In this document: positions 3-30,484 of the stretch, in pieces
How positions within the stretch are numbered: the first letter of the stretch is position 1
Layout of the letters: every line of letters starts with the position of its first letter
Virus record (IMG/VR): IMGVR_UViG_3300042335_000172
Span: 1-30,914 of that record
Source: a virus
DNA: 30,914 nt
Reading direction: 5' to 3' (one strand)
Notes under the pieces: generated by a model
The model's input: the letters and a program-made list of their open reading frames with translations, nothing else
Databases searched by the model: none
What the model was told of the DNA's origin: nothing
Position numbers and translations under genes: made by a program

Positions 3-641
3 GCCACGCGCAATTCTACCAATAGAAAAACAGGCAAATCAGTTCAGATATGGATTCTCGATGCACAGATGCATCCAGTAGAATCCAGAAGGTCTGGGCG
101 TGACGCGGAGAATCAATGCAATGGATGCCCGTTCGCAAGCAACAATGGTTGCTATGTGAATGCCAATCCCATCGCGTCGATCTGGCGGGCGTATCAGCGC
201 GGCTCATATGAATACCTTCAGATGGGCACACGCGAGTGGTATGACTTCTTCTCCGTTCCGTTTGTGCGCTTCGGTGCTTATGGCAATCCATCCCATCTCC
301 CACTTGAGATGGTGTATGACATTTCCAGACTCGCCACGCGTATCACTGGCTATTTCCACGACTGGAACTCCATGCCAGCCGGACTCGCCAAGTCATATGG
401 CAAGTTCTTCATGGCATCCTGTGAACCGGAGAATGTCGAGTATGCCCGCAATCTTGGGCTTCGCACATTCACCATATCCAACGAGCGTATCGGTAACGAT
501 ATCGAATGCCTCGCGGATTCCAATGGGCTTACTTGCGCGGAGTGTGGGCTGTGTGACGGCAACCGCCGCCGCAATAGCCTCCCATCCGTGTGGATCAATC
601 CTCATGGTTACCAGAAGAAGAAAGCGGAGGCCGCACTATGA
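3..641 (+). CDS. Phage Cys-motif protein of unknown function (5' partial)
   Basis: The frame is open from the first bases of the window, and the residues before the first internal ATG (position 69) look genuine (KTGKSVQIWIL, then a Cys motif). I therefore treat it as a gene whose start lies upstream. Visible features are CNGCPF and CYVN near the N terminus, an RFGAYGNPSHLP segment, TGYFHDWN, a MASCEPENVEYARN segment, and a C-terminal CAECGLCDG cluster followed by INPHG. I recognise this pattern from phage proteins that carry two Cys clusters, which suggests metal or Fe-S binding. I know no established function (a DUF-type family; not checked). The stop overlaps the next ATG (ATGA). A TATCG-GTAA-CGATA element at 488-501 encodes RIGNDI. 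Confidence 0.75.
   Translation, partial: ATRNSTNRKTGKSVQIWILDAQMHPVESRRSGRDAENQCNGCPFASNNGCYVNANPIASIWRAYQRGSYEYLQMGTREWYDFFSVPFVRFGAYGNPSHLPLEMVYDISRLATRITGYFHDWNSMPAGLAKSYGKFFMASCEPENVEYARNLGLRTFTISNERIGNDIECLADSNGLTCAECGLCDGNRRRNSLPSVWINPHGYQKKKAEAAL
488..501 (+). repeat. TATCG element, sense loop GUAA, in CDS
   Basis: In the first gene, encoding RIGND. The plus-strand spacer is GTAA. Confidence 0.8.
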
Positions 642-814
642 GAGAAGTTAAACGCTACAGACCAAGCCCTCTCGCCTCATCCAAGTGGGTGGAGGAATTC
701 AACAACAGGCAGAATGTGGAACTTCGCAAGGCCAAGGAAAAGTTCTCTTGGCTTGTGCTTATCCTCCTCATCAATGTCGGACTGATTGCCTTGCTTACCA
801 TTATCAATTGGTAG
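638..814 (+). CDS. Small single-pass membrane protein
   Basis: This 58-residue protein has a charged N-terminal half (residues 1-35, rich in K, R and E) and a C-terminal hydrophobic segment (about 36-56, FSWLVLILLINVGLIALLTI) ending in NW. The start at 638 is supported by GGAGG eight bases upstream and by an ATGA overlap with the preceding stop. An in-frame ATG at 590 lies deep inside the upstream gene and is less likely. The topology suggests N-in/C-out insertion in the inner membrane. Its position in the early operon, away from the lysis genes, argues against a holin. The function is unknown. A two-hairpin leader begins one base after its stop. Confidence 0.7.
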   Translation: MREVKRYRPSPLASSKWVEEFNNRQNVELRKAKEKFSWLVLILLINVGLIALLTIINW

Positions 815-897
815 CAGACACTCTGGTGTTATCGGTAAACGATAACGCCAGCAGTCTGCTTGCATGGTGCAAGTAGATAACCAGAAACACGAAACAT
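815..897 (+). promoter_or_regulatory. Two-hairpin leader element, copy 1
   Basis: The outer pair is CAGAC (815-819) with GTCTG (854-858). Inside it is a 12-bp stem, CTGGTGTTATCG with CGATAACGCCAG (one G-U pair), closed by a GTAAA loop at 835-839. A second hairpin at 856-876 pairs CTGCTTGCA with TGCAAGTAG around TGG. Its CTG is also part of GTCTG, so the two pairings compete. The tail, ATAACCAGAAACACGAAACAT, runs directly into the ATG at 898 with no Shine-Dalgarno. Four similar elements follow in the same operon. No U-tract is present, so it is not a standard terminator. Confidence 0.8.
830..844 (+). repeat. TATCG element, loop GUAAA, in leader 1
   Basis: It forms the top of the leader 1 hairpin, with a five-base loop. 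Confidence 0.85.
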
Positions 898-917
898 ATG
901 AATACATACTACACTAA
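864..917 (+). other. Possible leader ORF overlapping the next start
   Basis: The ATG in the loop of the second leader hairpin opens a 17-codon frame (MVQVDNQKHETYEYILH) that runs past the start of the next gene (898) and stops at 917. It has no Shine-Dalgarno and its ATG is in a hairpin. Similar MV...N...K frames start at the same place in leaders 3, 4 and 5. This may only reflect conserved leader DNA. Confidence 0.25.
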
Positions 918-1185
918 GTCGGAATCGGGCGAATTCGTCCCTATCGTTATCACCAAGAACGAAGCCATCAAGATCATCCTCGATGACTCGATTGACATGG
1001 TCAGGCGCAACCTCGACTCCCTCATCAGGGATCAGTTGAGCCAGCGAGTAGCCAATGAATTGGATCTGCTCGACCTTCGCGCTGCCGTCCAAACAGCAGC
1101 GGATGACCTCGATATGGGCGATGAAGTCCGCGATGCGGTCAAGGACTACATCGACAACTGCTCGATCCGCGTAGACATCGACTAA
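898..1185 (+). CDS. Small acidic early protein, unknown function
   Basis: This 95-residue protein has no domain I recognise. It is acidic, with a central segment rich in D, L and R (DSIDMVRRNLDSLIRDQLSQ) that is probably helical, followed by DLDMGDEVRDAVKDYIDN. The start is the first ATG after two-hairpin leader 1, within an A-rich non-Shine-Dalgarno context (ACGAAACATATG). It appears to be the only gene between leaders 1 and 2. Its place in an operon of small unique proteins suggests an early host-takeover or accessory role, but nothing in the sequence shows it. Confidence 0.7.
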   Translation: MNTYYTKSESGEFVPIVITKNEAIKIILDDSIDMVRRNLDSLIRDQLSQRVANELDLLDLRAAVQTAADDLDMGDEVRDAVKDYIDNCSIRVDID

Positions 1186-1186
1186 T

Positions 1187-1289
1187 CAGACACTCCGCTC
1201 ATTATCGTTTAACGATAGTGGGCGGCAGTCTGCTTACATAAAGTAATCAGAAAACCAGATTCCCAACTGTAAAGCGGGTAAACACGAAA
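1187..1289 (+). promoter_or_regulatory. Two-hairpin leader element, copy 2
   Basis: CAGAC (1187-1191) pairs with GTCTG (1228-1232) around the stem CCGCTCATTATCG / CGATAGTGGGCGG, which has two G-U pairs and a TTTAA loop at 1208-1212. The second hairpin (1230-1250) pairs CTGCTTAC with GTAATCAG, with one mismatch and an ATAAA loop. It is the only copy without ATG in this loop. The downstream leader is longer than in the other copies and ends GGGTAAACACGAAA before the ATG at 1290. It also lacks a Shine-Dalgarno. Confidence 0.75.
1203..1217 (+). repeat. TATCG element, loop UUUAA, in leader 2
   Basis: It forms the top of the leader 2 hairpin, with a five-base loop. Confidence 0.85.
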
Positions 1290-1550: not shown

Positions 1551-1897
1551 AAACACACGACGAAGCAGTTGATGAGATGTATGACGATCTTTTTGCTCTT
1601 TACGGCAAAGTCTTCGGCCCAATGTGGCTTGAGACTAAAGACAAAACATGGTCGTTCGACATTGAGAAAATGGAAGGTCAGGACATTATTCGCTCATCTG
1701 ATGGCATGGTAGAGTTAATGGTCGAACAGACCAATTCAATCTGCCGCCGGACGGCATGGAAATACATGGTCTATGCCGTTTACAATGATGATATTGGCGA
1801 GATGTATGAATACAATTACAGGAATGCTGCCGCCAATAAGTTTATGGAAATTCAGTTATCCATGAAGTTTGCAACGGCACTCAACAAGTGTGATTAG
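1547..1897 (+). CDS. Small acidic early protein, unknown function
   Basis: This 116-residue protein is acidic and rich in aromatic residues, with no family I recognise. Features are EAVDEMYDDLFALYGKVFGP near the start, a central MVELMVEQTNSICRRTAWKY segment and a YEYNYRNAAANKF segment near the end. It starts four bases inside the previous gene, with a strong Shine-Dalgarno (AAGGAGG) at normal spacing, unlike the leader-borne starts. Its stop (TAG, 1895-1897) lies within the outer stem of leader 3. Confidence 0.7.
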   Translation: MKTHDEAVDEMYDDLFALYGKVFGPMWLETKDKTWSFDIEKMEGQDIIRSSDGMVELMVEQTNSICRRTAWKYMVYAVYNDDIGEMYEYNYRNAAANKFMEIQLSMKFATALNKCD

Positions 1898-1974
1898 ACA
1901 CACCACCAGTTATCGTCCAACGATAGCTGGTGGCAGTCTGCTTACATGGTGTATGCAGAAAACACGAAACACAA
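1895..1974 (+). promoter_or_regulatory. Two-hairpin leader element, copy 3
   Basis: TAGAC (1895-1899, a G-U variant of CAGAC) pairs with GTCTG (1936-1940). The inner stem is CCACCAGTTATCG / CGATAGCTGGTGG with one G-U pair and a TCCAA loop at 1916-1920. The second hairpin (1938-1958) is CTGCTTACA / TGTATGCAG around TGG with a single mismatch. The tail AAAACACGAAACACAA precedes the ATG at 1975. The upstream stop codon is part of the element, so ribosomes ending there would disturb the outer stem. Confidence 0.8.
1911..1925 (+). repeat. TATCG element, loop UCCAA, in leader 3
   Basis: It forms the top of the leader 3 hairpin, with a five-base loop. Confidence 0.85.
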
Positions 1975-1978: not shown

Positions 1979-2439
1979 CAAGAGAACAATACGCTGAAGA
2001 CAAAATATACGAGGAGTTTACTCCTATTGATACATGGGAAGCAACCATCGAACATCTGAATGATGATTACTCATTCAGTTGTGTCGGCGGCCCATTTGTT
2101 GAACTATCGCCCGGTGATGTGTTGTCGAAATACGACTACGATGCATTCCAAGATTATCGTAGACGATATGTCGAGCGCATGATCCTTGAGAATAAGTGGG
2201 CCTATATCGGTGGAGATATTTATTACATCGATGCCAAGTGGGCCTATGATCAAATAATCCAACAAGTCAAGGATTGCGATCCATACTATGTCAGCGGCAC
2301 AGATTCAGCCGATGGCTGGTATTACTACGATGACAAGGCTTTCTGCTGCGGGCCATTCGGGTCGCAGTCATATGCCTATGAAAACGCAGTCAATGAAAGT
2401 TGGAAAAATATGAAGGAGGTATCATGCTGCGAAAACTAA
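1975..2439 (+). CDS. Acidic, Tyr-rich early protein, unknown function
   Basis: This 154-residue protein is rich in D, E and Y, with clusters such as YDYDAFQDYRRRY and GWYYYDDKAFCCG. It has four Cys in the C-terminal third (two CC pairs). I recognise no family. The start at 1975 follows leader 3. An in-frame ATG at 1930 falls inside the leader hairpin and would read through it, so I reject it. The strong negative charge resembles DNA-mimic or anti-host proteins, but that is a guess from composition. The gene overlaps the next one by 16 bases. Confidence 0.65.
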   Translation: MTREQYAEDKIYEEFTPIDTWEATIEHLNDDYSFSCVGGPFVELSPGDVLSKYDYDAFQDYRRRYVERMILENKWAYIGGDIYYIDAKWAYDQIIQQVKDCDPYYVSGTDSADGWYYYDDKAFCCGPFGSQSYAYENAVNESWKNMKEVSCCEN

Positions 2440-2693
2440 TCACATCGCACGGCATTCCTTTCAATGTGGTTCTTGATACCACAAAGGATGAACCAATAGT
2501 CAGCTTCTACGATGCCCGCTGGAACTTCACCGAATATGGTCAGTTCACGGGCGGGAGCTACTATGCATCAACACTCCTTGAGGATAGTCCGGGTGGACTC
2601 TTCCTCGACACAGGCACTCCAGACTGGAGGATAGATCACGCGGAGATGCGTGAAGTCCTCAATTGGCTCTCGGATTGCCTAATATCCAAGTAA
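2424..2693 (+). CDS. Small early protein, unknown function
   Basis: This 89-residue protein starts at 2424, where AAGGAGGT sits five bases upstream. An in-frame ATG at 2400 lies further inside the preceding gene without such a signal. The composition is mixed alpha/beta: an N-terminal VVLDTTKDEPIVSFYDARW stretch, a GG(S)YYASTLL segment and a C-terminal probable helix (HAEMREVLNWLSDCLISK). I recognise no family. It is a second cistron with a Shine-Dalgarno, in contrast to the leader-borne first cistrons. Its stop is at the edge of leader 4. Confidence 0.65.
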   Translation: MLRKLITSHGIPFNVVLDTTKDEPIVSFYDARWNFTEYGQFTGGSYYASTLLEDSPGGLFLDTGTPDWRIDHAEMREVLNWLSDCLISK

Positions 2694-2775
2694 CCAGACA
2701 CTCCGTCCGTTATCGTCAACGATAGCGGGCGGAAGTCTGGTAGCATGGTGCTACTGGTAAACAACAAACACGAAA
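2694..2775 (+). promoter_or_regulatory. Two-hairpin leader element, copy 4
   Basis: CCAGAC (2694-2699) pairs with GTCTGG (2735-2740). The inner stem CCGTCCGTTATCG / CGATAGCGGGCGG has 13 pairs, two of them G-U, with a TCAA loop at 2716-2719. The second hairpin (2737-2757) is CTGGTAGCA / TGCTACTGG around TGG. The A-rich tail ends AACACGAAA before the ATG at 2776. The loop ATG (2745) opens a longer frame that overlaps the start of the next gene. Confidence 0.8.
2711..2724 (+). repeat. TATCG element, loop UCAA, in leader 4
   Basis: It forms the top of the leader 4 hairpin, with a four-base loop. Confidence 0.85.
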
Positions 2776-3123
2776 ATGACAAACACAAACAAAATAAACG
2801 AAGCAATAAGCAAGAAAGTATCAGAGATAGTAGATAGAGAAGCCGACGAGCTTTTCATAGCTATCTGCAATTGGTCAGAAAAGAACCCAATCAAGATTAG
2901 TCCTTACTCTGAAGATGGAAAGATATTTTCAAGGAATTATCACTCACTTGCCACTTGGCATCACCTCTCATCAAATGAAAGGGAGACATATCAACCATTT
3001 GTTGATGCTACAGTCAAGATGATGTCCAAGTGGAAGCAGGCAAGGCACAACTACCTCTTCGAGAAAGCAGCGAAAGAGATCATCGAGAGGGCAAACATAT
3101 TTCTTCCAGAAAGCCTAAAGTAG
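2776..3123 (+). CDS. Small early protein, unknown function
   Basis: This 115-residue protein begins after leader 4 in an A-rich context. It looks mostly helical: an N-terminal amphipathic part rich in K, E and I (KINEAISKKVSEIVDREADE), and a C-terminal part ending KAAKEIIERANIFLPESLK. WSEKNP and TWHHLSSNERETYQPF lie in between. The last segment resembles a short conserved stretch in other small phage proteins, but I cannot name a family. It appears to be the only gene between leaders 4 and 5. Confidence 0.65.
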   Translation: MTNTNKINEAISKKVSEIVDREADELFIAICNWSEKNPIKISPYSEDGKIFSRNYHSLATWHHLSSNERETYQPFVDATVKMMSKWKQARHNYLFEKAAKEIIERANIFLPESLK

Positions 3124-3203
3124 TCAGACACACTCTCCCCGTGCATGCGGGGGGAGTAGTCTGATGGCATGGTGCTATCAGTAAACACAGAAAACAGAAA
3201 CAT
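3124..3203 (+). promoter_or_regulatory. Two-hairpin leader element, copy 5 (no TATCG core)
   Basis: TCAGAC (3124-3129) pairs with GTCTGA (3159-3164). The inner hairpin here is CTCTCCCCG (3133-3141) with CGGGGGGAG (3148-3156) and a TGCATG loop, so the TATCG..CGATA core is absent although the fold is kept. The second hairpin (3161-3181) is CTGATGGCA / TGCTATCAG around TGG. The tail ends GAAACAT before the ATG at 3204. This copy separates the leader fold from the dispersed TATCG element. Confidence 0.8.
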
Positions 3204-3419: not shown

Positions 3420-5032
3420 CACTCGACAAATTGCTTGAAACTCTGGACTTCTGCCAGCCCATCAGAAAAGAAACCAAGGTCGGGACGCGTCTTCTTCGGA
3501 AGGCGCAACCTACCAAGGAATTCTGGGACACCTACAAGATCGACAAGCAGTCCTATTCCAAAGAACTCAAGAAGATTGGAATGTCAATCAATGAGTTCCG
3601 TGGTAATTGGGAAGTTGCTTGGTGGTCGAGGCCGGATTTGACATTCGCGCCCATCCCCAACTTCAAGCTGGAGATGCCGGAAGATATCGTTACCGATATT
3701 TCTTCTCTGCCTGCACTCAAGTTTCCTGACAAATTGTTTCAATATCAGATAACTTCTGTGCAGTTGGGTGTCCGTTCGCTGGAGAAATACAACCGCGCTC
3801 TTCTTGGTCACGGCACTGGCATGGGCAAGACGGCAATCGCCTTGGCTATCGCCCGTGAATTCGGCAAGAGGGTCGCAGTCATCTGTCCCAAGCCAATCGT
3901 CACAGACTGGCATAGGATGGCGAAATACCTCGGCGTAGAGACATACGATGTCTGCGGCTGGGAGTGGGTCAAGACGGGCAAATCCAAGATGGGTGGTTGG
4001 GTTTCCAAGGAGAAGAAGAACTTCAAATGGGAAATACCAAAAGATACTATTTTAGTATTTGATGAAGTCCATCGCGGCAAAGCATACAAGACCCAGAATG
4101 CCATCATCATCGCAGATGCGGTGCATCAAAACATCTCGTCTCTCGCATTATCGGCAACGATAGCGGATGACCCAACCAAGATGTGGGCTATTGGTCAGTT
4201 CCTCGGTCTGCACAAGGGGCAGGATTACTTTCCTTTCCTCTTGCGGAATGACTGCGTGAAGACTCAATGGGGCATGAAGTTCGATGGTGGACTCCATGTC
4301 TTGAGCAGGATTCACAAGCAGATATTCCCAGATCGAGGCAACAGGCTCAAACCATCTGATGTTGGTGATGAGTTCCCAGAGACGCTCATCCATGCCCGTG
4401 CATTCGACATGGATAGTGCCAAGGATATCGCGGCTGAATATGACAAGCTGCTTTTGCGTATCGAAGAGCTACGCATGCAGGAGAACTTCGCCGCTAATGT
4501 ATTGGCAGAGCAGACAAGAGCAAGGCAGGCCGTCGAGCTACTCAAAGCTCCAGCGGTTTGCTCTCTCGCTCAAGACCTCATCGAAGAAGGCAATTCCGTC
4601 TTCATCGCGGTCAATTATGTCGAGACGCTCAAGTTCATGCAGAATGAACTCAAGACCAAATGCACAATCCAAGGCGGGCAGAACGAACTCCTGCGTCGAG
4701 GGAACATCGATTCCTTCCAGAACGACAAGTCGAGAGTCATCATCGGCATCACACAAGCATGCCGTGAGGGTCTTAACTTGCACGATATCAATGGAAGGTA
4801 TCCACGCATCGCCTTGATCATGCCGACCTACTCTGTCTTCGATCTCAAGCAAGTCTTGGGTCGTGTCCACAGGGCGGGCGGCAAGTCAAAGTCGATCCAA
4901 TACCTCGTCTATGCTGCTGGGGTCGGCATCGAGGAGGACATCTGCGAATCGTTAGACATGAAACTGAAAAGGATGGATCAGCTTATGGATGGCGAAATAG
5001 ACGCATCCATCAGCTTGACTACATCAAAATGA
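3416..5032 (+). CDS. SNF2-like superfamily 2 helicase/ATPase
   Basis: This 538-residue superfamily 2 ATPase acts on DNA, probably in phage replication or recombination. Motifs in order: FQYQ (Q-motif-like, about residue 108); Walker A GTGMGKT at about 132-138; Walker B DEVH at about 215; motif III LSAT at about 243-246; GITQACREGLNLHD (motif V region) at about 445-460; and QVLGRVHRAGGKS (motif VI) at about 479. All core motifs are present, so it should be active. It starts by ATGA overlap without a Shine-Dalgarno and is last in the plus-strand operon, just before a terminator. A TATCG element at 3685-3698 lies upstream of Walker A. Another at 4149-4162 coincides with motif III (LSATIA). Confidence 0.92.
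   Translation: MTLDKLLETLDFCQPIRKETKVGTRLLRKAQPTKEFWDTYKIDKQSYSKELKKIGMSINEFRGNWEVAWWSRPDLTFAPIPNFKLEMPEDIVTDISSLPALKFPDKLFQYQITSVQLGVRSLEKYNRALLGHGTGMGKTAIALAIAREFGKRVAVICPKPIVTDWHRMAKYLGVETYDVCGWEWVKTGKSKMGGWVSKEKKNFKWEIPKDTILVFDEVHRGKAYKTQNAIIIADAVHQNISSLALSATIADDPTKMWAIGQFLGLHKGQDYFPFLLRNDCVKTQWGMKFDGGLHVLSRIHKQIFPDRGNRLKPSDVGDEFPETLIHARAFDMDSAKDIAAEYDKLLLRIEELRMQENFAANVLAEQTRARQAVELLKAPAVCSLAQDLIEEGNSVFIAVNYVETLKFMQNELKTKCTIQGGQNELLRRGNIDSFQNDKSRVIIGITQACREGLNLHDINGRYPRIALIMPTYSVFDLKQVLGRVHRAGGKSKSIQYLVYAAGVGIEEDICESLDMKLKRMDQLMDGEIDASISLTTSK
3685..3698 (+). repeat. TATCG element (spacer TTAC), in CDS
   Basis: In the helicase gene, encoding IVTDI, flanked by A and T that extend the stem. 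This is the one asymmetric copy whose GTAA lies on the non-coding strand. Confidence 0.8.
4149..4162 (+). repeat. TATCG element, loop GCAA, at helicase motif III
   Basis: Encodes LSATIA, so the protein motif alone could explain part of it. Confidence 0.7.
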
Positions 5033-5036: not shown

Positions 5037-5083
5037 GGGGCAGACTGTCGGTTCAACACCTTCAGTTCTGCCCCTCTTTTTTT
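5037..5083. terminator. Bidirectional intrinsic terminator
   Basis: GGGGCAGACTG (5037-5047) pairs with CAGTTCTGCCCC (5063-5074) with one bulge. The stem has a T-rich run on its right (5075-5083) and an A-run on its left (5032-5036), so it can stop both the helicase operon and the convergent minus-strand operon. A TATCG element overlaps the end of the T-run. Confidence 0.85.
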
Positions 5084-5096
5084 ATCGTTGACGATA
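5083..5096 (-). repeat. TATCG element, minus-strand loop UCAA
   Basis: It lies in the 65-bp gap between convergent operons, one base after the stop of the minus-strand gene and overlapping the terminator T-run. The minus-strand spacer is TCAA. Confidence 0.85.
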
Positions 5097-5390: not shown

Positions 5391-6341
5391 TTATTCTCCT
5401 TTCAGAAAGTTCATCCACTCGTTCTCTGCCGGATCAAACCAGCACTGGCTACGCAAGTCAATGACAAGCTGGTGCGGTTCGATCTCGTCTGGAACCTCCC
5501 TCACAACCTCAGAGTTGCTGAAGTTGGAGACATTCAGTATCAAGAACCTGTGAGGAAGCTGCTTCATCGGCTCTTCCTTGCCTTGCGCCTCTCTCACTCT
5601 GCCGCGCACCTCTTGGCTCGACAAACTTTCTTTCTTTGCCGCGTCGAGAAGTGCAAGCATGTTGGGCTTCTTGAGGTCGGCATTTCCAATCTCTCTATAG
5701 ACTGTGAATGGCAGCATGGGATCGCGTTCGCTATTCGGGAATGCCCTACAGGTTCTCGCGTATCCGCTCACTGTGCTGTAGTTCTTCTTGAACTGGGCGC
5801 ATAGTTGATTGACCACATCTTCATGGCCCGCGTTTTCGAGTGCCACCACAGCGTCACCAATGATCCATTGGCTTCCAGACTCCAGAGTCAGGCCGAATGC
5901 GAATGCCTTGACCCAATCCTTCATGTCTACTTTGCCCTTGGGAACGCACTGGGTGAGTCCCGCACCAAGGTCGAATGTCTTGGTGAAGCTCGATAGCTCC
6001 AAGCCATCCTTCACACACTCGACAAGCTCCAGCTTCTCGTTGTCTGGTTCTGGATTATCGTTAACGATAGGTTCGCTTTCCTTGGACTGCGACAGATCTA
6101 CTGCCGCCTCATAGTCAAACGCCATCTTCTCATACATCTCCGCAACTTCATCGGCTGCGTTGTCTTCCAGATAGGTGTTCTTCTTGACCTTCTCCCAGAC
6201 CTTCTTGACCAATGTCTCGTTCATCTGGATGCCTTTCCATTCCTCGGAGGCGAACTGGAGCATGTGCTTCAGGTATGTCGCCTCGTTGACCAACTGCCCG
6301 TCATTCGTCGGGCTGAACATTTCGAGTTTACTTTGTTTCAT
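5391..6341 (-). CDS. Putative DNA-binding protein with ParB-like HTH region
   Basis: This 316-residue protein has an acidic middle (residues about 82-110) and a C-terminal half (about 155-252) of a type I recall from phage HTH/ParB-like proteins: WIIGDAVVALE, then NYSTVSGYARTCRAFPNSER, PFTVYREIG and a final SLSSQEVRGRVREA. The assignment rests on pattern recognition only. The start at 6341 (MKQSKLEMF) is preferred over 6377 because CAGTAAAACATATG matches the A-rich leaders elsewhere and gives a shorter overlap (14 bp) with the previous gene. If it binds DNA, the repeated TATCG palindrome is an obvious candidate site; one copy lies in its own gene (6056-6069, encoding IVND). Confidence 0.6.
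   Translation of the reverse strand: MKQSKLEMFSPTNDGQLVNEATYLKHMLQFASEEWKGIQMNETLVKKVWEKVKKNTYLEDNAADEVAEMYEKMAFDYEAAVDLSQSKESEPIVNDNPEPDNEKLELVECVKDGLELSSFTKTFDLGAGLTQCVPKGKVDMKDWVKAFAFGLTLESGSQWIIGDAVVALENAGHEDVVNQLCAQFKKNYSTVSGYARTCRAFPNSERDPMLPFTVYREIGNADLKKPNMLALLDAAKKESLSSQEVRGRVREAQGKEEPMKQLPHRFLILNVSNFSNSEVVREVPDEIEPHQLVIDLRSQCWFDPAENEWMNFLKGE
6056..6069 (-). repeat. TATCG element (TTAA spacer), in CDS
   Basis: A perfect 14-bp palindrome inside the putative ParB-like gene, encoding IVND in its acidic linker. Confidence 0.85.
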
Positions 6342-8370: not shown

Positions 8371-8386
8371 CACTTTTGTCTATTAT
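8358..8386 (+). promoter_or_regulatory. Possible divergent promoter
   Basis: On the plus strand TTGCTA (8358-8363) and TATTAT (8381-8386) are separated by 17 bp. The -10 overlaps the left half of the TATCG palindrome (8384-8397). It would drive an RNA through the hairpin at 8397-8428 into a small plus-strand ORF. The -35 matches only four of six consensus bases. Confidence 0.35.
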
Positions 8387-8397
8387 CGTTAACGATA
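8384..8397. repeat. TATCG element (TTAA spacer) in divergent intergenic region
   Basis: A perfect palindrome in the 166-bp gap 8335-8500. It overlaps the possible plus-strand -10 and sits just upstream of the minus-strand -35, an operator-like place. Its last base begins the next hairpin. Confidence 0.85.
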
Positions 8398-8556: not shown

Positions 8557-11500
8557 TCTCTCCAAGGTTGTTGGCTAAGTATTCCTGTGCCTCTTCTGTC
8601 GGGAGTTCATCGAGAGTGTCGGCATTGTCGATGACCCACTCCTTCATCAGCGGGCCAGCAATGCGGACAAACTCTCTCTGCTCTGCCAGCGTCATCCTCA
8701 CACCACTGCTCCACTCAAGGCTACCCTGCCACTTGGGCGGGATGAGTCCGTTCCTGTAGAGGACGGAGAACGCTGGGTCGGGTGTCTCGCTGGATGCAAT
8801 TCTTCCCACAAGTGACAATGCCCTGCGACCCGGCCCGTTCTCTACCATGATAGAGTTGTATCTGACTGGGTCGCCAAAGTAGCCGAGCTTCTTGTCGAGG
8901 AACAATGAGCTTCCGGGCATCTCGCGGATTAGGTTTGATAGCCTTGTGTCACCTTCCAGCTTCTCGTCTGTGATTATCTTCTGGAAGTCACGCAGTTGAC
9001 CCGGAACGACGAGGCGGGAGATAATATTGGTCGCGATTCTTGTGGCATCCTTCGGTAAGTCTCTCGCCTCTTTGAGTTCGATGAGATCAGCCACACCAGT
9101 AAGGAATGACTGGTCGAGGGCGGCAACGAATCCGATGGCAAATGGAGCGGCGATGACTGTTAGGGCTGCATCTGTAATCTCAATCGGCTGCTTCTCCTGC
9201 TTCTCTCTATACCTTTTTACGGCATCTGCGAACATCGATCCGGCTGCAATCGGAATAACGAGCGGCGTGTAGAGATAGGAAACATACTTGTCCCCCACCC
9301 TGATAGAGTAATTAGACCCGCCGTTCTCTCTCCAAATCTTGTTCTGCTCTGGGTCGGCTGGCCCAGTAGCGTAGAACTGGACTGGCGGTCTGCTCTCTTG
9401 ATCCTCGTCATCTCCACCAAGGAGTGCTGTAACTATGGCGGGTAAAGCGAAGGCTGCTGTTCCAATCATCCCCTTGATTGCGATATCTGCCGCCTTTTCT
9501 TCCCTACCAAGGATGAATGGACTCTTCTCCGCTCCGGGCTTGAGTTCGATCTTACCGCGAAGTAGCGGACTTAATTTGACATATGGCGCAAGCCTCGCCG
9601 CGCTGACATACGGGAGATAGTTGAGGTTCTCGTTAAGAACATTCGCCACGACATTGGTGAAAGGAATGAATAGCTGCGTGATCGGGCTGACCTGAAGTAG
9701 CTTATTACCAAGGCTTGCAATGAATCCTACTACTCCAACTGGTTCCTGCGAGTAAACGCTCTCCAGCGCATCTCTTTCGGCATCGATTCGCTTCTGATCT
9801 CCAAGCCTCTGCTTTGCATATATCTCATTTGCGCGGATGATGACTTCTCTTTCCTTCAGCTTGCCCTTCGACTCACTGGATGCGAGTTCAGCCTCTGCCT
9901 GCCGCTTCGCTGCTTCGTAGGCATCGACCTCGAAATCCTTCGCGCCGAATGACGCTGCCCTAACTTCATATGAAGCCTCTCGCATGAAGGCATCTGTGGC
10001 CCGCATGACACGCATCAGACCCCTCGGACTGACAGTAGTGAGGACTGAGTTCAGCCACTTTGGAATCGCTTCGATCTTCCCGTCACCATAGGTTGTGAGT
10101 CCATAGACAAACTTGGGCGTGTTTTCGGGGTTAGCACCCTCAAGCACATTGAGCTTCGGATACTTCATCAGCTTGTCATCTTGGATGCCAGACGGGTTGA
10201 GTCCTGTCTGCATGACATAGGCGAACGAGTTCCTCGACGGGGCTTCCTTGCGGATAGTTGCTGAATAAAGTGCGCGGAGCATCGGCCCAGTTGCCTTTCC
10301 CTTCGTGTAGATAGACCAGACGGCGATGTTCCCAAGGAGGTTGAAGGTGCTGCCAAGGAAGTTGACTGCCTGCGTTCCGACCTGTGAGAGGAGCGCGAAA
10401 TACCAGTAGCTTGAGAAGTAGTCTCTGGTTGTGAATCCTTGCTTCTGTAGCAAGAACCTTCCCATCTTCTGCTCTTCGATGGCGCGGGTGACTCCTTCCG
10501 GCAGCGCGGATATCCTATCGCCCCATTCGCGGAGTGTCTGGGCGAACTCTGGACTCCATTCCAGATATCCTTCTTGGAAGTTGTGTGTCTGGCGGAAGGC
10601 TTCGTAGACTCCAAGGTCATCAAGCTGGCCCATGTTAGCCATCTCCATCAGCCTCTGGAGGAGTGTTCTCTGATTGGCCTTTGGCTTAATGTTGTTCTGT
10701 GAGAGTTTTTCCTGCGCCCGCTGGATCGCCTGCTCCAAGTTGATTGATCGCTGCGCCTGCACGGCCTTCGTCATCTCGCTCTCGATCAGCTTGGAGAGTT
10801 CGTTGGATGTCTTCTCATCAAAGCCAAGCTCAAGGATGATGAGTTCATTCAGCCTATCCACGAATGCGCGGTAGTCGCTTGCCGCGAGTTTGGTGAGTCC
10901 CTTGAGTGTGGTAGCCAGCTTGAATCTCTCTTCCGCCGTGGCTACCTTCTTCATCGCCTCCTTCTCGATCTTGCCTCCGGTGATCTTTCCAGTCTCCTTG
11001 TTCACCTCGAAACCAAGGCTCTTCTTCACCCGCTTGGCAGTCTCCTCATCCAAGTAGGCTTGCGTCTCGGAGATAAACTTCTCTACTTGCTCATCCGTTG
11101 CTCCTACTCCTTTGAGTTCCGCCTTGATGTGGGCGGTCACCGCAGCCTGCGCGGCATATCTATTCTCCCCGATGTAGGTGATCAGGTCGCTAAACTTGTA
11201 TTCAAGGAAATCAGCGGAATCCTTGATCGCTTGGTTCCGCATGGCATCGCTCCATTGCCTGTCCGCAAGCATCGAGAAGAGTTCCTTGTAGTCATTCTCA
11301 AACTCCCTCTTGTCGCTATACTGCTCACCGATCTTCTTCTTTAGCTCCGCGATGAATAGCTTGTAGTCATTATCGTTACCGATAACCGACTTCACTTGAG
11401 CGAGGAACTTGCCTTCCCGCTTCTTCTTCACCTTCTCCTTGGCGGGTTTACCCTTCTCCTCGATCTCCCTAGCGGTCTGTTTAGCCACAGCGGAGAATGC

Positions 11501-21004: not shown

Positions 21005-21018
21005 TATCGTTACCGATA
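21005..21018 (-). repeat. TATCG element, sense loop GUAA, abutting a start codon
   Basis: Lies immediately upstream of the ATG at 21004 on the minus strand and one base beyond the stop of the small upstream gene. The 48-nt region 21005-21052 has no room for a normal leader, so the element itself is the translation-initiation region. Confidence 0.85.
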
Positions 21019-21692: not shown

Positions 21693-23537
21693 TTATGATT
21701 GATTGATAGAGTAATCCCAATATCTTTCTTGGCAACACAAAAATGGCGGGCATTCCTCGTTGTTTTCTGGGCAGTCGCCAACCGGAGAGTCTTCGTTGTT
21801 CTTGATGTTAGCCATGATTCTCAGCCTATCAATTGTTGCAGACCCGCTTATGTTTACCTTTAACTGGAACTCGCTTCCTTCTATTGCGGGTATCTCCGAT
21901 ATGTTGCTGCAATCTTTGGGATCGGGCGTATTAAACTTGTATCTCTTGAAAAGATTACCTCCCCTTTGTGGAATACAATCAACGGCTTGGGGCTGACATG
22001 GATTGCAGCCGAATGTGCTTGGCTCCATCAAGTCATACCAGCACGGATTGGAGTCTGACCTATACTCAGTCGATGTTGTGGCCTGACCCTTTATCTCGCT
22101 CAACCACATTTCCCCGCCGGAAATCCTTTTTCGTAGAAACCTATTCGTGGCTCCAGTTCCTTGAAAGCTGTATCTCCCCGTTGTAAAGAACGACTCAATC
22201 GGAACAGTTCCATTCTCGTTATAGTCGTTTTCCTGCTCTTGAGTCACCTCGTAAAGCCTGTTCTTGTTGTCACTATCAAAGGAAAATACAAATCCCCTTT
22301 GCTCGCCGCTGATAAGTGCGGTAAGAACTTGTGTAGGTCTTACGCCGGTCCACAATCCGTTCCACCTGAATGAAAGCTGTGCGTCTGGTGACGGGCTTGA
22401 TGATTGGTCAAGGTCAAGCGCGGTCATCCCCCTATGGTATCTATGAAGTCCGGGTGCAGATGTTCTTTTAATCTCTGGAGCAACAGTTGATAGAAGATAG
22501 TTGTCATAATACATCGTGCTTGCAAACTGACGCAGCCAACGCGTGTCTCTATCAACCCACTTGTTCACCTCGCGGGACAGCTTTCTCATGGAAAAGTATC
22601 TCCCGAACTCGGATTGGCTATTGGAATAGAATGCCCAACCATCGTGGCTGCGGAACCAAAGTTCACTATTCACAAGCGTTGTGTATGGGCTGGCACACCC
22701 GCGACCAAGAAGCGATATGCGCTGGATTTGCTGCTCTGCCCAACTGCTCCTCGGCAGCCCAACATCCATTGAGAAAGCCCCATTCCCGGTAAGAACAACA
22801 AGCTCTCCCTGACCGCGAAGGTTGCCCCCGATATACGGCATCACCTTCATCGCGGTAATGTTACCCATTGTGCTTGGCGTAGAGAATGCCCCGCCGCCAG
22901 ACCAATAGGTTATCTCGGTAAAGTTCTCCGTGTTCTTTGTGTCTGTAAACCCGTTGCCATAGATAATGTCGGATGCGTAGATTTGGTTGAATCGATCTGT
23001 CACAAATACACGACCAAAGGCATATTCCATCAAGGTTCCTATTGGCATCTGCCTTGCGAGTGGGTTGAGCCTGTATGCGGGTATGTTCAAGTCTCCATCC
23101 CAAGCTATAGGATTCTGGTAGCCATTCTGGATGTAAACTCGATCCTCTGCCTGCACGAACCATGTGTGCATCATGCTTCCATCGTTTCCATCAATCAGCT
23201 TATAGGCATACGCCGTATTGTTGATGATCTTCAAGAAATAGATAACGCCCGCGACTGAAATAAGAATCCCATCGGCAGACTCATACTTCACCCTTCTGTA
23301 TGGATATGCTCCTTGAAGATTTCCTGTCTGAATATCGTTAACGATAGAATCCGACTGGTTCTCTCCAGCTACTATGCGGATGTTCCTAATGCTCGGTCTT
23401 GTTCTGTTGATGCCACCGCGAAATGTGCGGTTCACTGACTCTGCTACATAGAATTCCGGCAAGTATGATGGATGTGTAGCCGCATCTTGGGCAACTACAC
23501 TTGTGAATCCATCGAATACTGATCCTTCACTTGCCAT
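21693..23537 (-). CDS. Tail nozzle-like (tubular) protein
   Basis: This 614-residue protein is beta-rich with many W, Y and G residues. Its N terminus (MASEGSVFDGFTSVVAQDAA) and Trp/Gly repeats (SHDGWAFYSNSQSEFGRYFS, FRWNGLWTGV) resemble the tail-tube/nozzle proteins of short-tailed phages. No enzymatic motif is visible. A Cys-rich C-terminal tail (CNPCQPQAVDC, then CPENNEECPPFLCCQERYW) is unusual for a nozzle and may be disulfide-linked or metal-binding. The start overlaps the preceding fibre stop (TAATG). A TATCG element lies at 23333-23346. Confidence 0.7.
   Translation of the reverse strand: MASEGSVFDGFTSVVAQDAATHPSYLPEFYVAESVNRTFRGGINRTRPSIRNIRIVAGENQSDSIVNDIQTGNLQGAYPYRRVKYESADGILISVAGVIYFLKIINNTAYAYKLIDGNDGSMMHTWFVQAEDRVYIQNGYQNPIAWDGDLNIPAYRLNPLARQMPIGTLMEYAFGRVFVTDRFNQIYASDIIYGNGFTDTKNTENFTEITYWSGGGAFSTPSTMGNITAMKVMPYIGGNLRGQGELVVLTGNGAFSMDVGLPRSSWAEQQIQRISLLGRGCASPYTTLVNSELWFRSHDGWAFYSNSQSEFGRYFSMRKLSREVNKWVDRDTRWLRQFASTMYYDNYLLSTVAPEIKRTSAPGLHRYHRGMTALDLDQSSSPSPDAQLSFRWNGLWTGVRPTQVLTALISGEQRGFVFSFDSDNKNRLYEVTQEQENDYNENGTVPIESFFTTGRYSFQGTGATNRFLRKRISGGEMWLSEIKGQATTSTEYRSDSNPCWYDLMEPSTFGCNPCQPQAVDCIPQRGGNLFKRYKFNTPDPKDCSNISEIPAIEGSEFQLKVNISGSATIDRLRIMANIKNNEDSPVGDCPENNEECPPFLCCQERYWDYSINQS
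23333..23346 (-). repeat. TATCG element (TTAA spacer), in CDS
   Basis: Inside the nozzle-like gene near its 5' end, encoding SIVND. Confidence 0.85.
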
Positions 23538-25942: not shown

Positions 25943-25956
25943 TATCGTTAACGATA
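25943..25956 (-). repeat. TATCG element (TTAA spacer) just before a fibre start
   Basis: A perfect palindrome in the 44-bp gap between the metallophosphoesterase stop and the 436-residue fibre start. Confidence 0.85.
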
Positions 25957-25981: not shown

Positions 25982-26866
25982 CTATCTCGCCTCAAAAAGC
26001 TCGTATTCCGGCGCGAGGGCATTTCCATTTTGCAGCCCGCTTGGTTGGTAGATTCTTAACCACCATGCCCCGGTTGGCTTCGGTGGTTTTCCTGTCTCGA
26101 TATGCCAGCCTCCGTATCCATCTCCGTATTCCTCTTTGTATCCAGCGATCTTCACATGGGTCTGGCGGCTGATGATTACATGGTCCCTCCTACCCAGTTT
26201 GATCCTTTCGATGGCGACTTGCCAGCTTTCGTGGACATGCCCGCTGCAAACGATATCTGCGTCAGAAACATATACTGCCTGCCTATTCGTTTGTATGACG
26301 CCGCGAGTTACAGGGCCACCACCGCCACTTCCGTGAAAATACCAGAGGACAAGCGATGCGTTGGTTCTCTTGTTGTTGGTTATCTGGAAGCGGACATAGC
26401 CAGAGTATCCACCGCGCCGAGCGATGCCGCCATACGATCTGATTCTTTCTGCAAGCCTCTCATTTAGATCGGTTTCATGCGCCTTCTTGATTGATGATTC
26501 GTGATTGCCGTTTCCTCTCACAGTCAGAATTGTTTTGTATGGCTCCAAATATTCCGCAGCCGTGTTTACCAAGCTATCCAGATAATTGTTATTCTGATGC
26601 TCTGGTCTAATGTCACTCTTGCTGGCTCGCTTGTCATACTTCCCCTGCATGGCGCAGAAGAAATCCCCGAAGTCCAATACGGGCGCGTTGCGCTGGAGTG
26701 CTAGGTCTAAGTGCTTCTTGAGCTTCTTGCGGTCACAGTGCGGGTTGTCCCAATGCACATCGCTTTGCAATAAAAACCACTGTTCGTCGCCAACCTTCGG
26801 GAAGTTGATGTTGAAGACATGAACATTCCTGCTGACTTCTTTGAATGACCAACTTGGTTTACTCAT
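25982..26866 (-). CDS. Calcineurin-like metallophosphoesterase
   Basis: This 294-residue protein carries the family motifs in order: D36-x-H38 (SDVHWD), GD at 67-68 (DFGDFF), GNHE at 120-123, H178 (WYFHGSG) and GHVH at 209-212. All metal ligands are present, so it should be an active phosphoesterase, but the substrate is unknown. It sits in the lysis block, which is unusual, and its start overlaps the amidase stop (ATGA at 26863-26866). TATCG elements lie just beyond its stop and in the adjacent amidase gene. Confidence 0.9.
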   Translation of the reverse strand: MSKPSWSFKEVSRNVHVFNINFPKVGDEQWFLLQSDVHWDNPHCDRKKLKKHLDLALQRNAPVLDFGDFFCAMQGKYDKRASKSDIRPEHQNNNYLDSLVNTAAEYLEPYKTILTVRGNGNHESSIKKAHETDLNERLAERIRSYGGIARRGGYSGYVRFQITNNKRTNASLVLWYFHGSGGGGPVTRGVIQTNRQAVYVSDADIVCSGHVHESWQVAIERIKLGRRDHVIISRQTHVKIAGYKEEYGDGYGGWHIETGKPPKPTGAWWLRIYQPSGLQNGNALAPEYELFEAR

Positions 26867-27342
26867 ACATGTTTCTTTAGTTCTCCCATGAACCTATTGT
26901 ATTCTGTGGGGTTGAGGTCATTCTTCCTATTCGGGCTAACTGTCCTGTGATCCGTCACATCTTTTATCGTTAACGATAACTTCTTCATGCGCGGGGCGAG
27001 ATACTCGATTGCCGACTCTATCATCTCTTTGGAGAGCGGCGTGTCGTATGTGTCGCCCTCGAAAGATACTCCGAGGCTCCAGCTATTCAGATCAGGCTTG
27101 TTCCTCCAGAAACTTTTCCCAGCATGCCATGTCCGCTCATTGTCGCTTGCCAATACTGTGCGCTCTCCGTCTCGTTTAATGATACAATGGTAGCTCACCA
27201 TGCTATCTGGATTCAGGCACCACTCTACACTTCCTTTGTATCCTCCAGAGGTGTGGTGTAGAACCACGGCCTTGGGTATGATTACTCTCCCCTTAGAAAA
27301 GTTAGGGGTCTGCTTGTAAACTTCTTTATACTTGGAGGTCAC
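26863..27342 (-). CDS. N-acetylmuramoyl-L-alanine amidase (endolysin)
   Basis: This 159-residue Amidase_2/PGRP-type enzyme cleaves the MurNAc-L-Ala bond of peptidoglycan. Metal ligands are H29/H30 (VVLHHTSG), H132 (TDHRTVSP) and D142 (RKNDLNP). SWSLGVSFEG lies in between. The start chosen is GTG at 27342, overlapping the lipoprotein stop (GTGA). A longer frame from 27528 would run over the lipoprotein gene and lacks homology there. It has no signal peptide, so it needs a holin. Confidence 0.88.
   Translation of the reverse strand: MTSKYKEVYKQTPNFSKGRVIIPKAVVLHHTSGGYKGSVEWCLNPDSMVSYHCIIKRDGERTVLASDNERTWHAGKSFWRNKPDLNSWSLGVSFEGDTYDTPLSKEMIESAIEYLAPRMKKLSLTIKDVTDHRTVSPNRKNDLNPTEYNRFMGELKKHV
26965..26978 (-). 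repeat. TATCG element (TTAA spacer), in CDS
   Basis: Inside the amidase gene, encoding LSLTI just before the second catalytic His. Confidence 0.85.
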
Positions 27343-27494
27343 TTGTCTTTGAGCGTCCTTGTCGGAAGCTCGTATGAGAAGGTGCCAAAGTCTGTCTGCA
27401 CCCCGAACCGCAGTGTTTCGCAGCCAGAAAGGAATAAGACTCCAAAGAGGCACCATGCCGCCAAACATAAAGAGATGACGATCTTGGAGGTCAT
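27339..27494 (-). CDS. Small lipoprotein, probable outer-membrane spanin
   Basis: This 51-residue protein has a signal peptide (MTSKIVISLC, then AAWCLFGVLFLSGC) with a lipobox LSGC (Cys25), then a short polar tail (ETLRFGVQTDFGTFSYELP, ending KDK). It is too short for an enzyme and sits between the holin-like and amidase genes, as Rz1-type o-spanins do. No separate i-spanin is visible. The start (27494) overlaps the upstream stop (ATGA). Confidence 0.65.
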   Translation of the reverse strand: MTSKIVISLCLAAWCLFGVLFLSGCETLRFGVQTDFGTFSYELPTRTLKDK

Positions 27495-27667
27495 TTCTTC
27501 TCGCGGCGGAACACCTCGATTGCGCCAATGATGGCGATCACCGCTGTGCCGATGGCAGAGAATTGCTCCGGGTCGATGTTGATACCGACCAGCGCGGCGA
27601 TTGTGGTTAACCCAGCCCAAGTTGATTTCTCCTTGAGGCGGCTTGTGATGAATTCTACGATTTTCAT
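27491..27667 (-). CDS. Holin-like small membrane protein
   Basis: This 58-residue protein has two hydrophobic segments (about 17-30 and 38-52: WAGLTTIAALVGIN and AIGTAVIAIIGAIEV) and a basic C terminus (FRREKK). I recognise the WAGL..AALVG...(S)AIGTAV.AIIGAIE pattern from small phage holins. The start at 27667 overlaps the preceding stop by ATGA. A longer start at 27700 lies within that gene. Confidence 0.7.
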   Translation of the reverse strand: MKIVEFITSRLKEKSTWAGLTTIAALVGINIDPEQFSAIGTAVIAIIGAIEVFRREKK

Positions 27668-27840
27668 AGTTGTGTTATCTTCTTCCACATGTAGACGCAT
27701 GTCAAGACACCTGCGATGAGGCCGACGAATGCTCCGCCGATTCGAAGTCCAGTCTCTATGTGGGGGAGCATGCTCACTAGCACGCCAGACAAGCTAGTCA
27801 CAGTTCCTAGTATTCCAGTCATAGTCGGATGGTCGCTCAT
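27664..27840 (-). CDS. Small membrane protein next to the holin-like gene
   Basis: This 58-residue protein (starts MSDHPTMTGILG) has two hydrophobic segments (about 8-25 and 35-51: IGGAFVGLIAGVLTCVY). The start shares its first base with the preceding stop (TAATG). It overlaps the holin-like gene by ATGA. With that gene it could form a holin/antiholin or two-component pair. Confidence 0.6.
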   Translation of the reverse strand: MSDHPTMTGILGTVTSLSGVLVSMLPHIETGLRIGGAFVGLIAGVLTCVYMWKKITQL

Positions 27841-28463
27841 TAGTCTACAGTCGAGGCGACGAGCCTCCCCCTCCCGATTGTTATGGTTTCACTCGCGGCG
27901 AAGCTGGTCATCATAATATTGATCTCATCATTGTCATCCAACTCGATCATCCAGCTTGTGACGAGTTTGGCTTCGGCGTTGCTGGTAGAGTAGGCGCGGC
28001 ACTCAGTCTCTGGGATACTCGTCCCGTTCTTTGCAAGCCGGATGCCTAGTGTGTGGTTAGGATTCGCCCCCCTTGCGTCAACGCTTCCGTAGAATCTAAA
28101 GATGCGGGTCGCCCCGCTTGTGTTTTTTAATCCAAAGTTGTTGGTAGTGGATAAGCCCATTCCTGTAGTAACTCCGGTGTCGAGTGTGCCTACGAGGGTT
28201 GTAGATGAGAAGACATTCTGTGTGACTATCGCCGTGCCACCTGTGATGTTTGATACTTGTCCTCGCTCTATCGAGGCGATTGGCGCACCTTGGAACCCTT
28301 GGGCGATGGTCTGCGAGATCAGGAGATTCTGCTGGGCTTCATTCAACGCTGAAAAGCACGCGAAGCTGTAGGGATTATCGTTACCGATAGCCAGCGCAAT
28401 CGTGAGATACCGCTCGTAGTTCAGAGCATCCCAGTTCTTATCTGATGTGCAAGCGAGACTCAT
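27840..28463 (-). CDS. Fibre/receptor-binding-like protein with repeat motif
   Basis: This 207-residue protein begins with two copies of a degenerate motif (ACTSDKNWDALNYERYL and ACFSALNEAQQNLLIS) related to the CF...QLYEI motif of the three genes upstream. A beta-rich domain (about 75-207) with many G, N and T residues follows, ending in IGRGRLVASTVD. It is probably a tail tip or fibre head. The start overlaps the preceding stop by ATGA. A TATCG element at 28376-28389 encodes AIGND between the two repeats. Confidence 0.65.
   Translation of the reverse strand: MSLACTSDKNWDALNYERYLTIALAIGNDNPYSFACFSALNEAQQNLLISQTIAQGFQGAPIASIERGQVSNITGGTAIVTQNVFSSTTLVGTLDTGVTTGMGLSTTNNFGLKNTSGATRIFRFYGSVDARGANPNHTLGIRLAKNGTSIPETECRAYSTSNAEAKLVTSWMIELDDNDEINIMMTSFAASETITIGRGRLVASTVD
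28376..28389 (-). repeat. TATCG element, sense loop GUAA, in CDS
   Basis: Falls between two repeat motifs of the 207-residue protein, encoding AIGND. The same variant occurs at 30471. Confidence 0.85.
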
Positions 28464-29377: not shown

Positions 29378-29378
29378 G

Positions 29379-29747
29379 TTATTGGTTTAAAAGTTCAAAT
29401 GCTTCTTTTGTGGTATCGTAAAACTCAAACGGGCATTCGGGCCAATCAATCCTTACCTCTGGATTTGTAATGAAGCTAGAAAGAATCTGATTTGTCCAAG
29501 CGTGAACTGCATTGAGCTTGGCACTTGTTTTGCCAGCATTGCCCAAAGCGATTTGAAGGCTCAGTAGCGTTGTCAGTTGCGTCCCGCCATACCCATTTAG
29601 TTGAAGCCACTCTTCGGCTGTTGAACCCATATAGTCGTTTTGATACTCAATTTCTCCAGATGCGTTGTAGATCGTAATCCGATTTTGGGTCTGTTCTTTG
29701 TCAGTTACTGGATTAAAAAAAGTGTAGGTGTCGATAACAGGTTTCAT
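29379..29747 (-). CDS. Unknown virion-region protein
   Basis: This 122-residue protein has an N-terminal beta-like part (IDTYTFFNPVTD, then NRITIYNASGEIEYQNDYMG) and a helical middle (GTQLTTLLSLQIALGNAGKT) with no known family. The end contains DWPECPFEFYD. It lies between two fibre-like genes and starts by ATGA overlap. It may be a fibre chaperone or accessory, which is a guess from position. Confidence 0.55.
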   Translation of the reverse strand: MKPVIDTYTFFNPVTDKEQTQNRITIYNASGEIEYQNDYMGSTAEEWLQLNGYGGTQLTTLLSLQIALGNAGKTSAKLNAVHAWTNQILSSFITNPEVRIDWPECPFEFYDTTKEAFELLNQ

Positions 29748-30424
29748 TGTATGAACAGATTGATTGTTTGCCGCACACTTGTTGGATTCGTCGTGAATGT
29801 TCCAGATTGCAGATAGATGTTGTATAATGTTCCAGCGACAATTGGTATATTTAATCCTGTGGCTAGATAGGTGCTTGAGTTAAGTGTTGCTACTCCGTTT
29901 AAATTGTAGCTTACCAATGTTGCAACGCTTGCATTCGCTGTTACATCCCATAGCGACATTGTTGCTCCGCTATGACCTGCTGGTGTTGCTGCGCCTCCGT
30001 TGTAGAACGAAAGGCTTGCTGCAATAATAATTCCATTGCGATGTAAATTAAATTGTCGCCTGTCATAAGTTGTTACAGGGGCGAGGTCGAATATGTTTGA
30101 GAAGTAAGCATTCGTTCCGCCAGCAGCAAGAGTTGTAGACGAGTGGCCCAATGTTACACAATATGTTTTGTCATTAAAAGTGTTCCAGTCCGTAGAAGAA
30201 AGGTATCCAGCGGTAGCTGCGCCTGCTTGGGTGCTGCTAATCGTGGTTGTGCCTGCGGCGGTAGCCGTGGATAATGGCGCAGAGCCTGCGATAAGCTGCG
30301 CGGCAGTTGTATCCCCATTGATAGATGCAATCCCAGCAGATGCAGCACTTAGTGCCTGTAGGATTTCATAGAGTTGATTGTCGGGCGTTAAATCTGTAAA
30401 GCAATCTCTGGATATATCTGCCAT
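29744..30424 (-). CDS. Fibre-like protein with CF..QLYEI motif
   Basis: This 226-residue protein begins with RDCFTDLTPDNQLYEILQAL, the same motif as the 305-residue protein. A low-complexity Ala/Thr/Ser-rich linker follows (AGSAPLSTATAAGTTTISST), then a beta-rich remainder. The TAGYLSSTDWNTFNDKTY segment is common in phage fibres. The start follows a leader ending CTAAAATT. The region upstream (30425-30504) holds a TATCG element and a tRNA-arm-like inverted repeat. Confidence 0.65.
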   Translation of the reverse strand: MADISRDCFTDLTPDNQLYEILQALSAASAGIASINGDTTAAQLIAGSAPLSTATAAGTTTISSTQAGAATAGYLSSTDWNTFNDKTYCVTLGHSSTTLAAGGTNAYFSNIFDLAPVTTYDRRQFNLHRNGIIIAASLSFYNGGAATPAGHSGATMSLWDVTANASVATLVSYNLNGVATLNSSTYLATGLNIPIVAGTLYNIYLQSGTFTTNPTSVRQTINLFIQ

Positions 30425-30446
30425 AATTTTAGATTGTGTGTGCGGT

Positions 30447-30462
30447 GGAGGATCGAACTCCC
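30447..30462 (-). other. tRNA T-arm-like inverted repeat
   Basis: The minus strand reads GGGAG-TTCGATC-CTCC, a stem and 7-nt loop like a TpsiC arm, followed by ACCGCACACACA, which resembles a tRNA 3' end. No D or anticodon arm fits upstream, so it is not an intact tRNA. It might be a tRNA remnant, an att-like site, or chance. Confidence 0.35.
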
Positions 30463-30470
30463 TCGCTGGC

Positions 30471-30484
30471 TATCGTTACCGATA
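30471..30484 (-). repeat. TATCG element, sense loop GUAA, intergenic
   Basis: It lies in the 80-bp gap between the 88-residue and 226-residue genes. The minus strand reads TATCG-GTAA-CGATA. Confidence 0.85.

Follow-up and report, generated by a model that had tools for sequence, protein, structure and literature searches.

The viral record IMGVR_UViG_3300042335_000172 of IMG/VR, a 30.9-kb phage record (30,914 nucleotides, analysed in full and called the window below), carries genes for a helicase, an exonuclease, a tail fibre, an endolysin and a protein of 2925 amino acids, together with one for a protein that we call p328, and its genes lie on the plus strand up to ∼5 kb and on the minus strand further on. 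Scattered through this sequence is a short inverted repeat, which we searched for as TATCG and CGATA separated by four or five bases (TATCG-N4/5-CGATA). The window contains 21 exact matches compared with 0.03 expected from dinucleotide-preserving shuffles (maximum 1 in 100), and the excess over chance claimed by a first-pass annotation of this DNA is thus confirmed; one-mismatch variants with a four-base spacer occur once, which is the shuffled level. That annotation had listed 20 copies, and all 20 coordinates are correct, its total being one short because a site at 2155-2168 was overlooked. Its counts of nine copies between genes and of six copies with a TTAA spacer were also borne out, and its eleven copies in genes become twelve when the site at 2155 is counted. 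The sites are as follows.

488..501, site TATCGGTAACGATA, in the open reading frame 69-641 (+)
830..844, site TATCGGTAAACGATA, at the apex of an early RNA element
1203..1217, site TATCGTTTAACGATA, at the apex of an early RNA element
1911..1925, site TATCGTCCAACGATA, at the apex of an early RNA element
2155..2168, site TATCGTAGACGATA, in a gene; the copy missing from the original list
2711..2724, site TATCGTCAACGATA, at the apex of an early RNA element
3685..3698, site TATCGTTACCGATA, in the helicase gene
4149..4162, site TATCGGCAACGATA, in the helicase gene, encoding LSATI; retained in 10 genomes
5083..5096, site TATCGTTGACGATA, with convergent genes on either side
6056..6069, site TATCGTTAACGATA, within the p328 gene
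8384..8397, site TATCGTTAACGATA, with a terminator upstream, then the site, then the TTGAC (-35) of the exonuclease/SSB-like/p328 operon
11371..11384, site TATCGTTACCGATA, in the 2925-amino-acid gene; retained in 11 genomes
12686..12699, site TATCGTTGACGATA, in the 2925-amino-acid gene
13991..14004, site TATCGTTGACGATA, in the 2925-amino-acid gene
16633..16646, site TATCGTTAACGATA, in the 2925-amino-acid gene; retained in 6 genomes
21005..21018, site TATCGTTACCGATA, abutting the start codon of gene 20042-21004 (-)
23333..23346, site TATCGTTAACGATA, in gene 21693-23537 (-); retained in 10 genomes
25943..25956, site TATCGTTAACGATA, immediately ahead of the start of the tail-fibre-like gene 24627-25937 (-)
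26965..26978, site TATCGTTAACGATA, in the endolysin-like gene 26863-27528 (-)
28376..28389, site TATCGTTACCGATA, in gene 27840-28463 (-)
30471..30484, site TATCGTTACCGATA, intergenic

Twelve relatives were found in IMG/VR through the helicase and read whole, making 13 genomes with the window. These relatives hold 14–30 copies each, compared with 0–2 per genome for reversed-pattern controls, and ten further records found through p328 hold 10–26 copies each; related contigs include ten of ∼52–55 kb. At least one site is present in 139 of 139 terL or p328 loci. When IMG/VR was scanned for the exact 14-mer TATCGTTAACGATA, at least 119 stretches were recovered; among the matches listed, 74 encode proteins of this group and carry 1–14 sites each, and 45 are unrelated and each carry exactly the one bait copy. 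Thus the array is private to one phage group and is absent from those unrelated phages, so that the comparison with shuffled sequence and unrelated phages suggested in the first-pass annotation turned out in its favour, and the motif is identical in all contigs of the group, which come from many metagenomes. The bearers of the array form a large and hitherto undescribed group of bacterial viruses from the environment, with ∼20–36 copies per genome of a 16-letter palindrome that is conserved inside and between genes across large evolutionary distances. By the proteins tried, no close relative was found in INPHARED; terL had no match in phage records, isolate phages or GTDB genomes, p328 was not found in known phages, and a literature search for the 14-mer returned no phage paper, its sole match being an unrelated human paper. 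About 250 terL-bearing stretches of the group are present in IMG/VR, and gene order is circularly permuted among the contigs of ∼52–54 kb in the set G001–G012, which suggests headful packaging or circular maps.

The 286 sites of the 13 genomes fall into 112 orthologous clusters, in keeping with the prediction that relatives would have sites in matching positions. The members of a cluster share the ten core bases and differ in the spacer, which can even change from four to five bases; at the helicase site that encodes LSATI, for example, 10 genomes variously use GCA, GCT or GCG, all synonymous, for the alanine encoded by the spacer. In codon alignments of in-gene sites with a flank identity of 50–60%, the core survives intact at all ten bases in 55% of comparisons, compared with 2% for all ten positions of random control windows in the same alignments, and although these comparisons are not mutually independent the gap is very large. 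Because the core is kept far beyond its flanks and the control windows, each site is itself under selection, and not just the protein sequence that runs through it.

Spacer lengths from 0 to 12 were scanned in the 13 genomes, and a length of four is dominant, five is present, three is rare and the rest are essentially nil. In full, the motif spans 16 bp and is palindromic (TTATCGTTAACGATAA); counting bases at one site per cluster and in both directions gives aTTATCGTTAACGATAAt, in which the inner T/A and one or two bases beyond the core in both halves also carry information. The core is a perfect inverted repeat, unlike the asymmetric L5-type site. Position 2 of one half is the sole core position with changes clearly above background (25, mostly to C as in TCTCG, compared with 1.4 expected), and two-sided changes preserving the pairing stay at the background level (9 against 6.6). 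GT and AC changes in the core are similarly rare (6 GT, 5 AC), and across the sites of the 13 genomes no excess of compensatory or wobble changes upholding the core stem was found; hence the core behaves independently of RNA pairing. Moreover, the orientation of the spacer relative to transcription is split equally among intergenic clusters, with 8 each way. Because there is no pairing excess, a mismatch in one half is tolerated and orientation is lacking, we infer two DNA half-sites contacted by protein rather than an RNA stem, and judging from the sequences it is highly probable that the sites are bound by a protein. A GNRA-like RNA loop oriented with transcription looked convincing in the window, but the relatives are unoriented between genes, and such a loop is further contradicted by G..C spacers such as GAAC in other genomes.

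By our own gene calls, which are rough, 57 of the 112 clusters are intergenic, compared with 18% of noncoding sequence (P 4e-15), and many sites have their end at most 13 bases away from a start codon. At the operon encoding the exonuclease, the SSB-like protein and p328, 13 of 13 genomes carry a site with a terminator-like sequence upstream of it and the TTGAC box of that operon downstream. The site is not a promoter element as such, a candidate that we rejected because TTGACA lies within 40 nt at just ∼10 of 112 clusters. Sites are densely and irregularly placed in the early arm and sparse in the late arm, where the spacing is ∼2.4 kb and in G001 more even than random (coefficient of variation 0.39, P 0.0002). 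The late-arm evenness in G002, G005 and G009 is weaker but similar (P 0.02–0.04); G004, G010 and G012 count neither way, being permuted contigs in which the arm was mis-delimited.

The strongest candidate for a protein that reads these sites is encoded in the window itself.

5391..6341, minus strand, p328, candidate binder, with a LmbU/ParB-Noc-like DNA-binding domain at residues ∼138–255

The p328 gene is accompanied by the helicase, SSB-like and exonuclease genes and co-occurs universally with the array: it is present in 13 of 13 genomes, and by profile search in 10 of 10, six of which are additional. All p328 loci found are at least 53% identical to p328 of the window and all have the same motif. 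Residues 138–267 match LmbU_fam_TF with an E-value of 1.7e-8, and the AlphaFold model (mean predicted local distance difference test score 80) has Noc and ParB as its nearest PDB structures by Foldseek (7nfu, probability 1.00), with a template-modelling (TM) score of 0.68, normalized by target, to the Noc–DNA complex 6y93. Scans of Pfam and NCBIfam revealed no ParB N-terminal CTPase domain in p328. Invariant columns make up 46% of the DNA-binding domain, compared with 12–18% at the ends of the protein. Another protein, p238 (L136:2077-2790), is missing from 7 of 10 site-bearing genomes and is therefore excluded as a universal binder; it also has no fold match and no profile similarity to p328. 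A putative TerS, so named from a sequence pattern with no family matched, drops to 26% identity with the motif unchanged, and is thus a less likely binder. The C-terminal tails of the TerS-like family A3 (e.g. L157:11613-12212) carry IVND, IVYDN, IVNEN and IVSDN peptides, which appear to be translated remnants of the DNA site, in some cases with the DNA site decayed. The 2925-amino-acid protein (window 8501-17278, minus strand) has an internal HTH_17 excisionase-like domain at residues 1033–1080 and otherwise belongs to no family; such a domain is unusual for a virion or injected protein.

Some of the early sites are embedded in a separate structured RNA element of ∼65–75 nt, found in early intergenic regions, which consists of a long hairpin (CAGACAC...AGTCTG) followed by a second small hairpin. 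The window has five copies, four of them with the site at the apex, and further copies are present in L136.

810..872, plus strand, RNA element of two hairpins with the site at the apex of hairpin 1
1182..1246, plus strand, RNA element carrying the site at its apex
1890..1954, plus strand, RNA element carrying the site at its apex
2690..2753, plus strand, RNA element carrying the site at its apex
3120..3177, plus strand, RNA element without the site, apex GTGCATGC
L136 4501, 5179, 6109, 6567, 7367 and 7797, further copies of the RNA element

All 35 copies of hairpin 1 fold more stably on the coding strand (mean -6.3 kcal/mol), and 15 of its 20 pairs show compensatory change. The second hairpin, whose covariation was judged by eye, has a loop of TGG or ACAACC and a conserved AAAACACGAAA tail, and because CUG is common to both hairpins they may be alternative folds. 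The site forms the hairpin apex in most copies, and G002, G004, G007 and G010 each have a copy with the site just 3′ of the hairpin; the RNA element can be separated from the DNA site. Spacer lengths other than four cluster in these elements (16/37 against 9/249 elsewhere). The element has no family match in Rfam. A different RNA was found beside the terminase gene, where a match to the abiF RNA (Rfam RF03085, 44.4 bits, L138:5304-5340, minus strand) adjoins the terL stop in G001, possibly a phage-borne abiF-type system or a decoy.

We propose that the TTATCGTTAACGATAA array would be a genome-wide set of 16-bp binding sites on double-stranded DNA, each made of two 8-bp half-sites, and that its reader would be a dimeric protein encoded by the phage, likeliest p328 through its LmbU/ParB-Noc-type central domain. 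The bound protein would act as a system of dispersed operators or roadblocks, controlling its own replication operon (autoregulation) and several gene starts, limiting read-through from one transcription unit to the next and within long genes, and possibly bridging occupied sites. From sequence matches and the predicted fold, p328 is rather probably the binder; the chances that the main effect of the array is on transcription are about even, and we give the same even weight to the whole proposal of a p328-type dimer on a dispersed operator or roadblock array. Three readings had been offered in the first-pass annotation, namely dispersed operators, an RNA signal and a small palindromic repeat, and the operators are the best supported of these, since the sites are symmetric and specific in sequence, keep their positions, are overrepresented between genes and adjoin the promoter of the candidate binder's operon. 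The parallel drawn there with L5 stoperators does not hold at the points that define them, because L5 sites lack symmetry and follow the direction of transcription (PMC9283540) and the present sites are palindromic and unoriented between genes. Moreover, no match to the Phage_integrase, resolvase or ParA families was found in the genomes tested, which makes an L5-like role in lysogenic silencing unlikely.

Several observations weigh against our proposal. The distance from site to -35 box at the replication operon varies (12, 19 or ∼30 bases), and the overall link of sites to -35 boxes is weak, as the count of TTGACA above indicates. A rigid dimer would predict otherwise than that spacings of five or three bases occur mainly in RNA elements. 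For p328, the LmbU_fam_TF match scores 34.6 bits, under the NCBIfam cut-off of 125, the predicted TM score of the model is 0.49, the Foldseek E-values are weak (0.04–0.2; the Noc match has E 0.04 and TM 0.43–0.68 by target), and a profile search of PDB sequences gave no match. The putative TerS is likewise universal (10 of 10 genomes). In addition, the in-gene sites and the regularity of the late arm suit genome organisation equally well as transcription. In such a scheme the same protein–DNA array would serve a Noc-like p328 that condenses, bridges or anchors DNA during replication or packaging, with secondary effects on transcription. The Noc/ParB-like fold, the position of the p328 gene among replication-type genes (helicase, SSB-like, exonuclease), the more-than-random evenness of the late arm, the conservation of in-gene and convergent sites and the lack of detected integrase, resolvase or ParA are all consistent with it; however, p328 has no recognised CTPase domain and no ParA partner was found, the early arm is dense and irregular, and the strong intergenic enrichment and the conserved site at the operon promoter point to transcription. 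We regard this as unlikely on balance, although a serious alternative. A more specific form, only tentatively put forward, is that these apparently non-integrating phages may possess their own Noc-like organiser, a ParB-type protein without the CTPase domain, which would use ∼20–36 palindromes, roughly regular even inside an 8.8-kb gene, to coordinate transcription with compaction.

Three further explanations were considered. As an RNA hairpin, UAUCG-loop-CGAUA in transcripts would be a signal for processing, stability or antitermination, and the four early window copies at the apex of a transcribed, covarying hairpin, together with a coding-strand spacer in the window that mostly ends in AA, agree with this. 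Against it stand the equal split of spacer orientation between genes and the lack of compensatory or wobble excess in the core, and TCTCG breaks core pairing yet is conserved; within the RNA element TCTCG re-pairs differently and the 14-mer stays, and the element also occurs without the site (3120-3177). A general RNA signal is therefore quite improbable. Several host global regulators, e.g. Noc, read scattered palindromes, and a host nucleoid protein or transcription factor might read a host signal copied by the phage, but contigs of the group, drawn from many metagenomes, all carry an identical motif, and the unrelated viral contigs in which it occurs have a single copy each, which leaves a host reader improbable, if slightly less so than the RNA signal. 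The small palindromic repeat of the earlier annotation, taken as a mobile or selfish element comparable with repetitive extragenic palindromes (REP) or miniature inverted-repeat transposable elements (MITE), would account for a palindromic and dispersed sequence; nevertheless common flanks stop at ∼2 bases outside the RNA elements, positions are orthologous across relatives, the motif is confined to a single phage group and synonymous codons are conserved, and we consider it very improbable indeed.

Dispersed site arrays in lytic phages such as T1, TLS and Stevie are an acknowledged open question, and the present array is far sharper, being symmetric, orthologously conserved, maintained in genes at the synonymous level and accompanied by one DNA-binding protein in every genome checked. 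If p328 does bind these sites, ParB/Noc-type recognition would be linked to genome-wide control in apparently non-integrating phages; the array also offers a clean marker by which members of the group can be spotted in metagenomes.

Among known systems, the stoperators of cluster A mycobacteriophages (L5 gp71; TipsytheTRex repressor) are similar in having >20 sites per ∼52 kb with one short conserved word, placed in promoters and short intergenic gaps. An L5 stoperator is a 13-bp asymmetric word that is oriented with transcription and recognised by a monomer (PMC9283540), whereas the array here consists of 16-bp palindromes that are unoriented between genes, about half of them inside genes, with an unrelated protein and no integrase found. 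Noc sites are described in PMC4331003 and PMC8429893, in the former as palindromes scattered over the replicon, and KorB of plasmid RK2 silences genes via 12 dispersed operators (PMC11790492). The Noc, ParB parS and KorB sites resemble ours as scattered palindromes of ∼13–16 bp, and Noc/ParB is the best fold match of p328, but p328 lacks a recognised CTPase domain and a ParA, the site sequence is another one, and its membership rests on weak fold scores. LmbU binds a palindrome, forms dimers and was modelled on Spo0J, a ParB (PMC6510168), and its family is the one matched by the p328 domain; however, the p328 score is far under the cut-off, and LmbU is a regulator of actinobacterial antibiotic clusters with few known targets. 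The repeats of T1-like phages (TLS, Stevie), with ∼16–21 copies in lytic genomes of ∼50 kb and function unknown (PMC11447400, PMC4319613), are close in copy number and genome size, but are 21–22 bp long, asymmetric and transcription-oriented, and no binder was proposed for them. SPBRE of Bacillus phage SPbeta, a repeat detected in silico in many intergenic regions, is the binding site of the master repressor MrpR (PMC10516654), and differs in its 15-bp motif, its ∼ten promoters, its temperate phage and its tyrosine-recombinase-like binder. Hence the array shares the logic of dispersed sites with these systems, and differs in its symmetry, its lack of orientation, its conservation within genes and its candidate protein.

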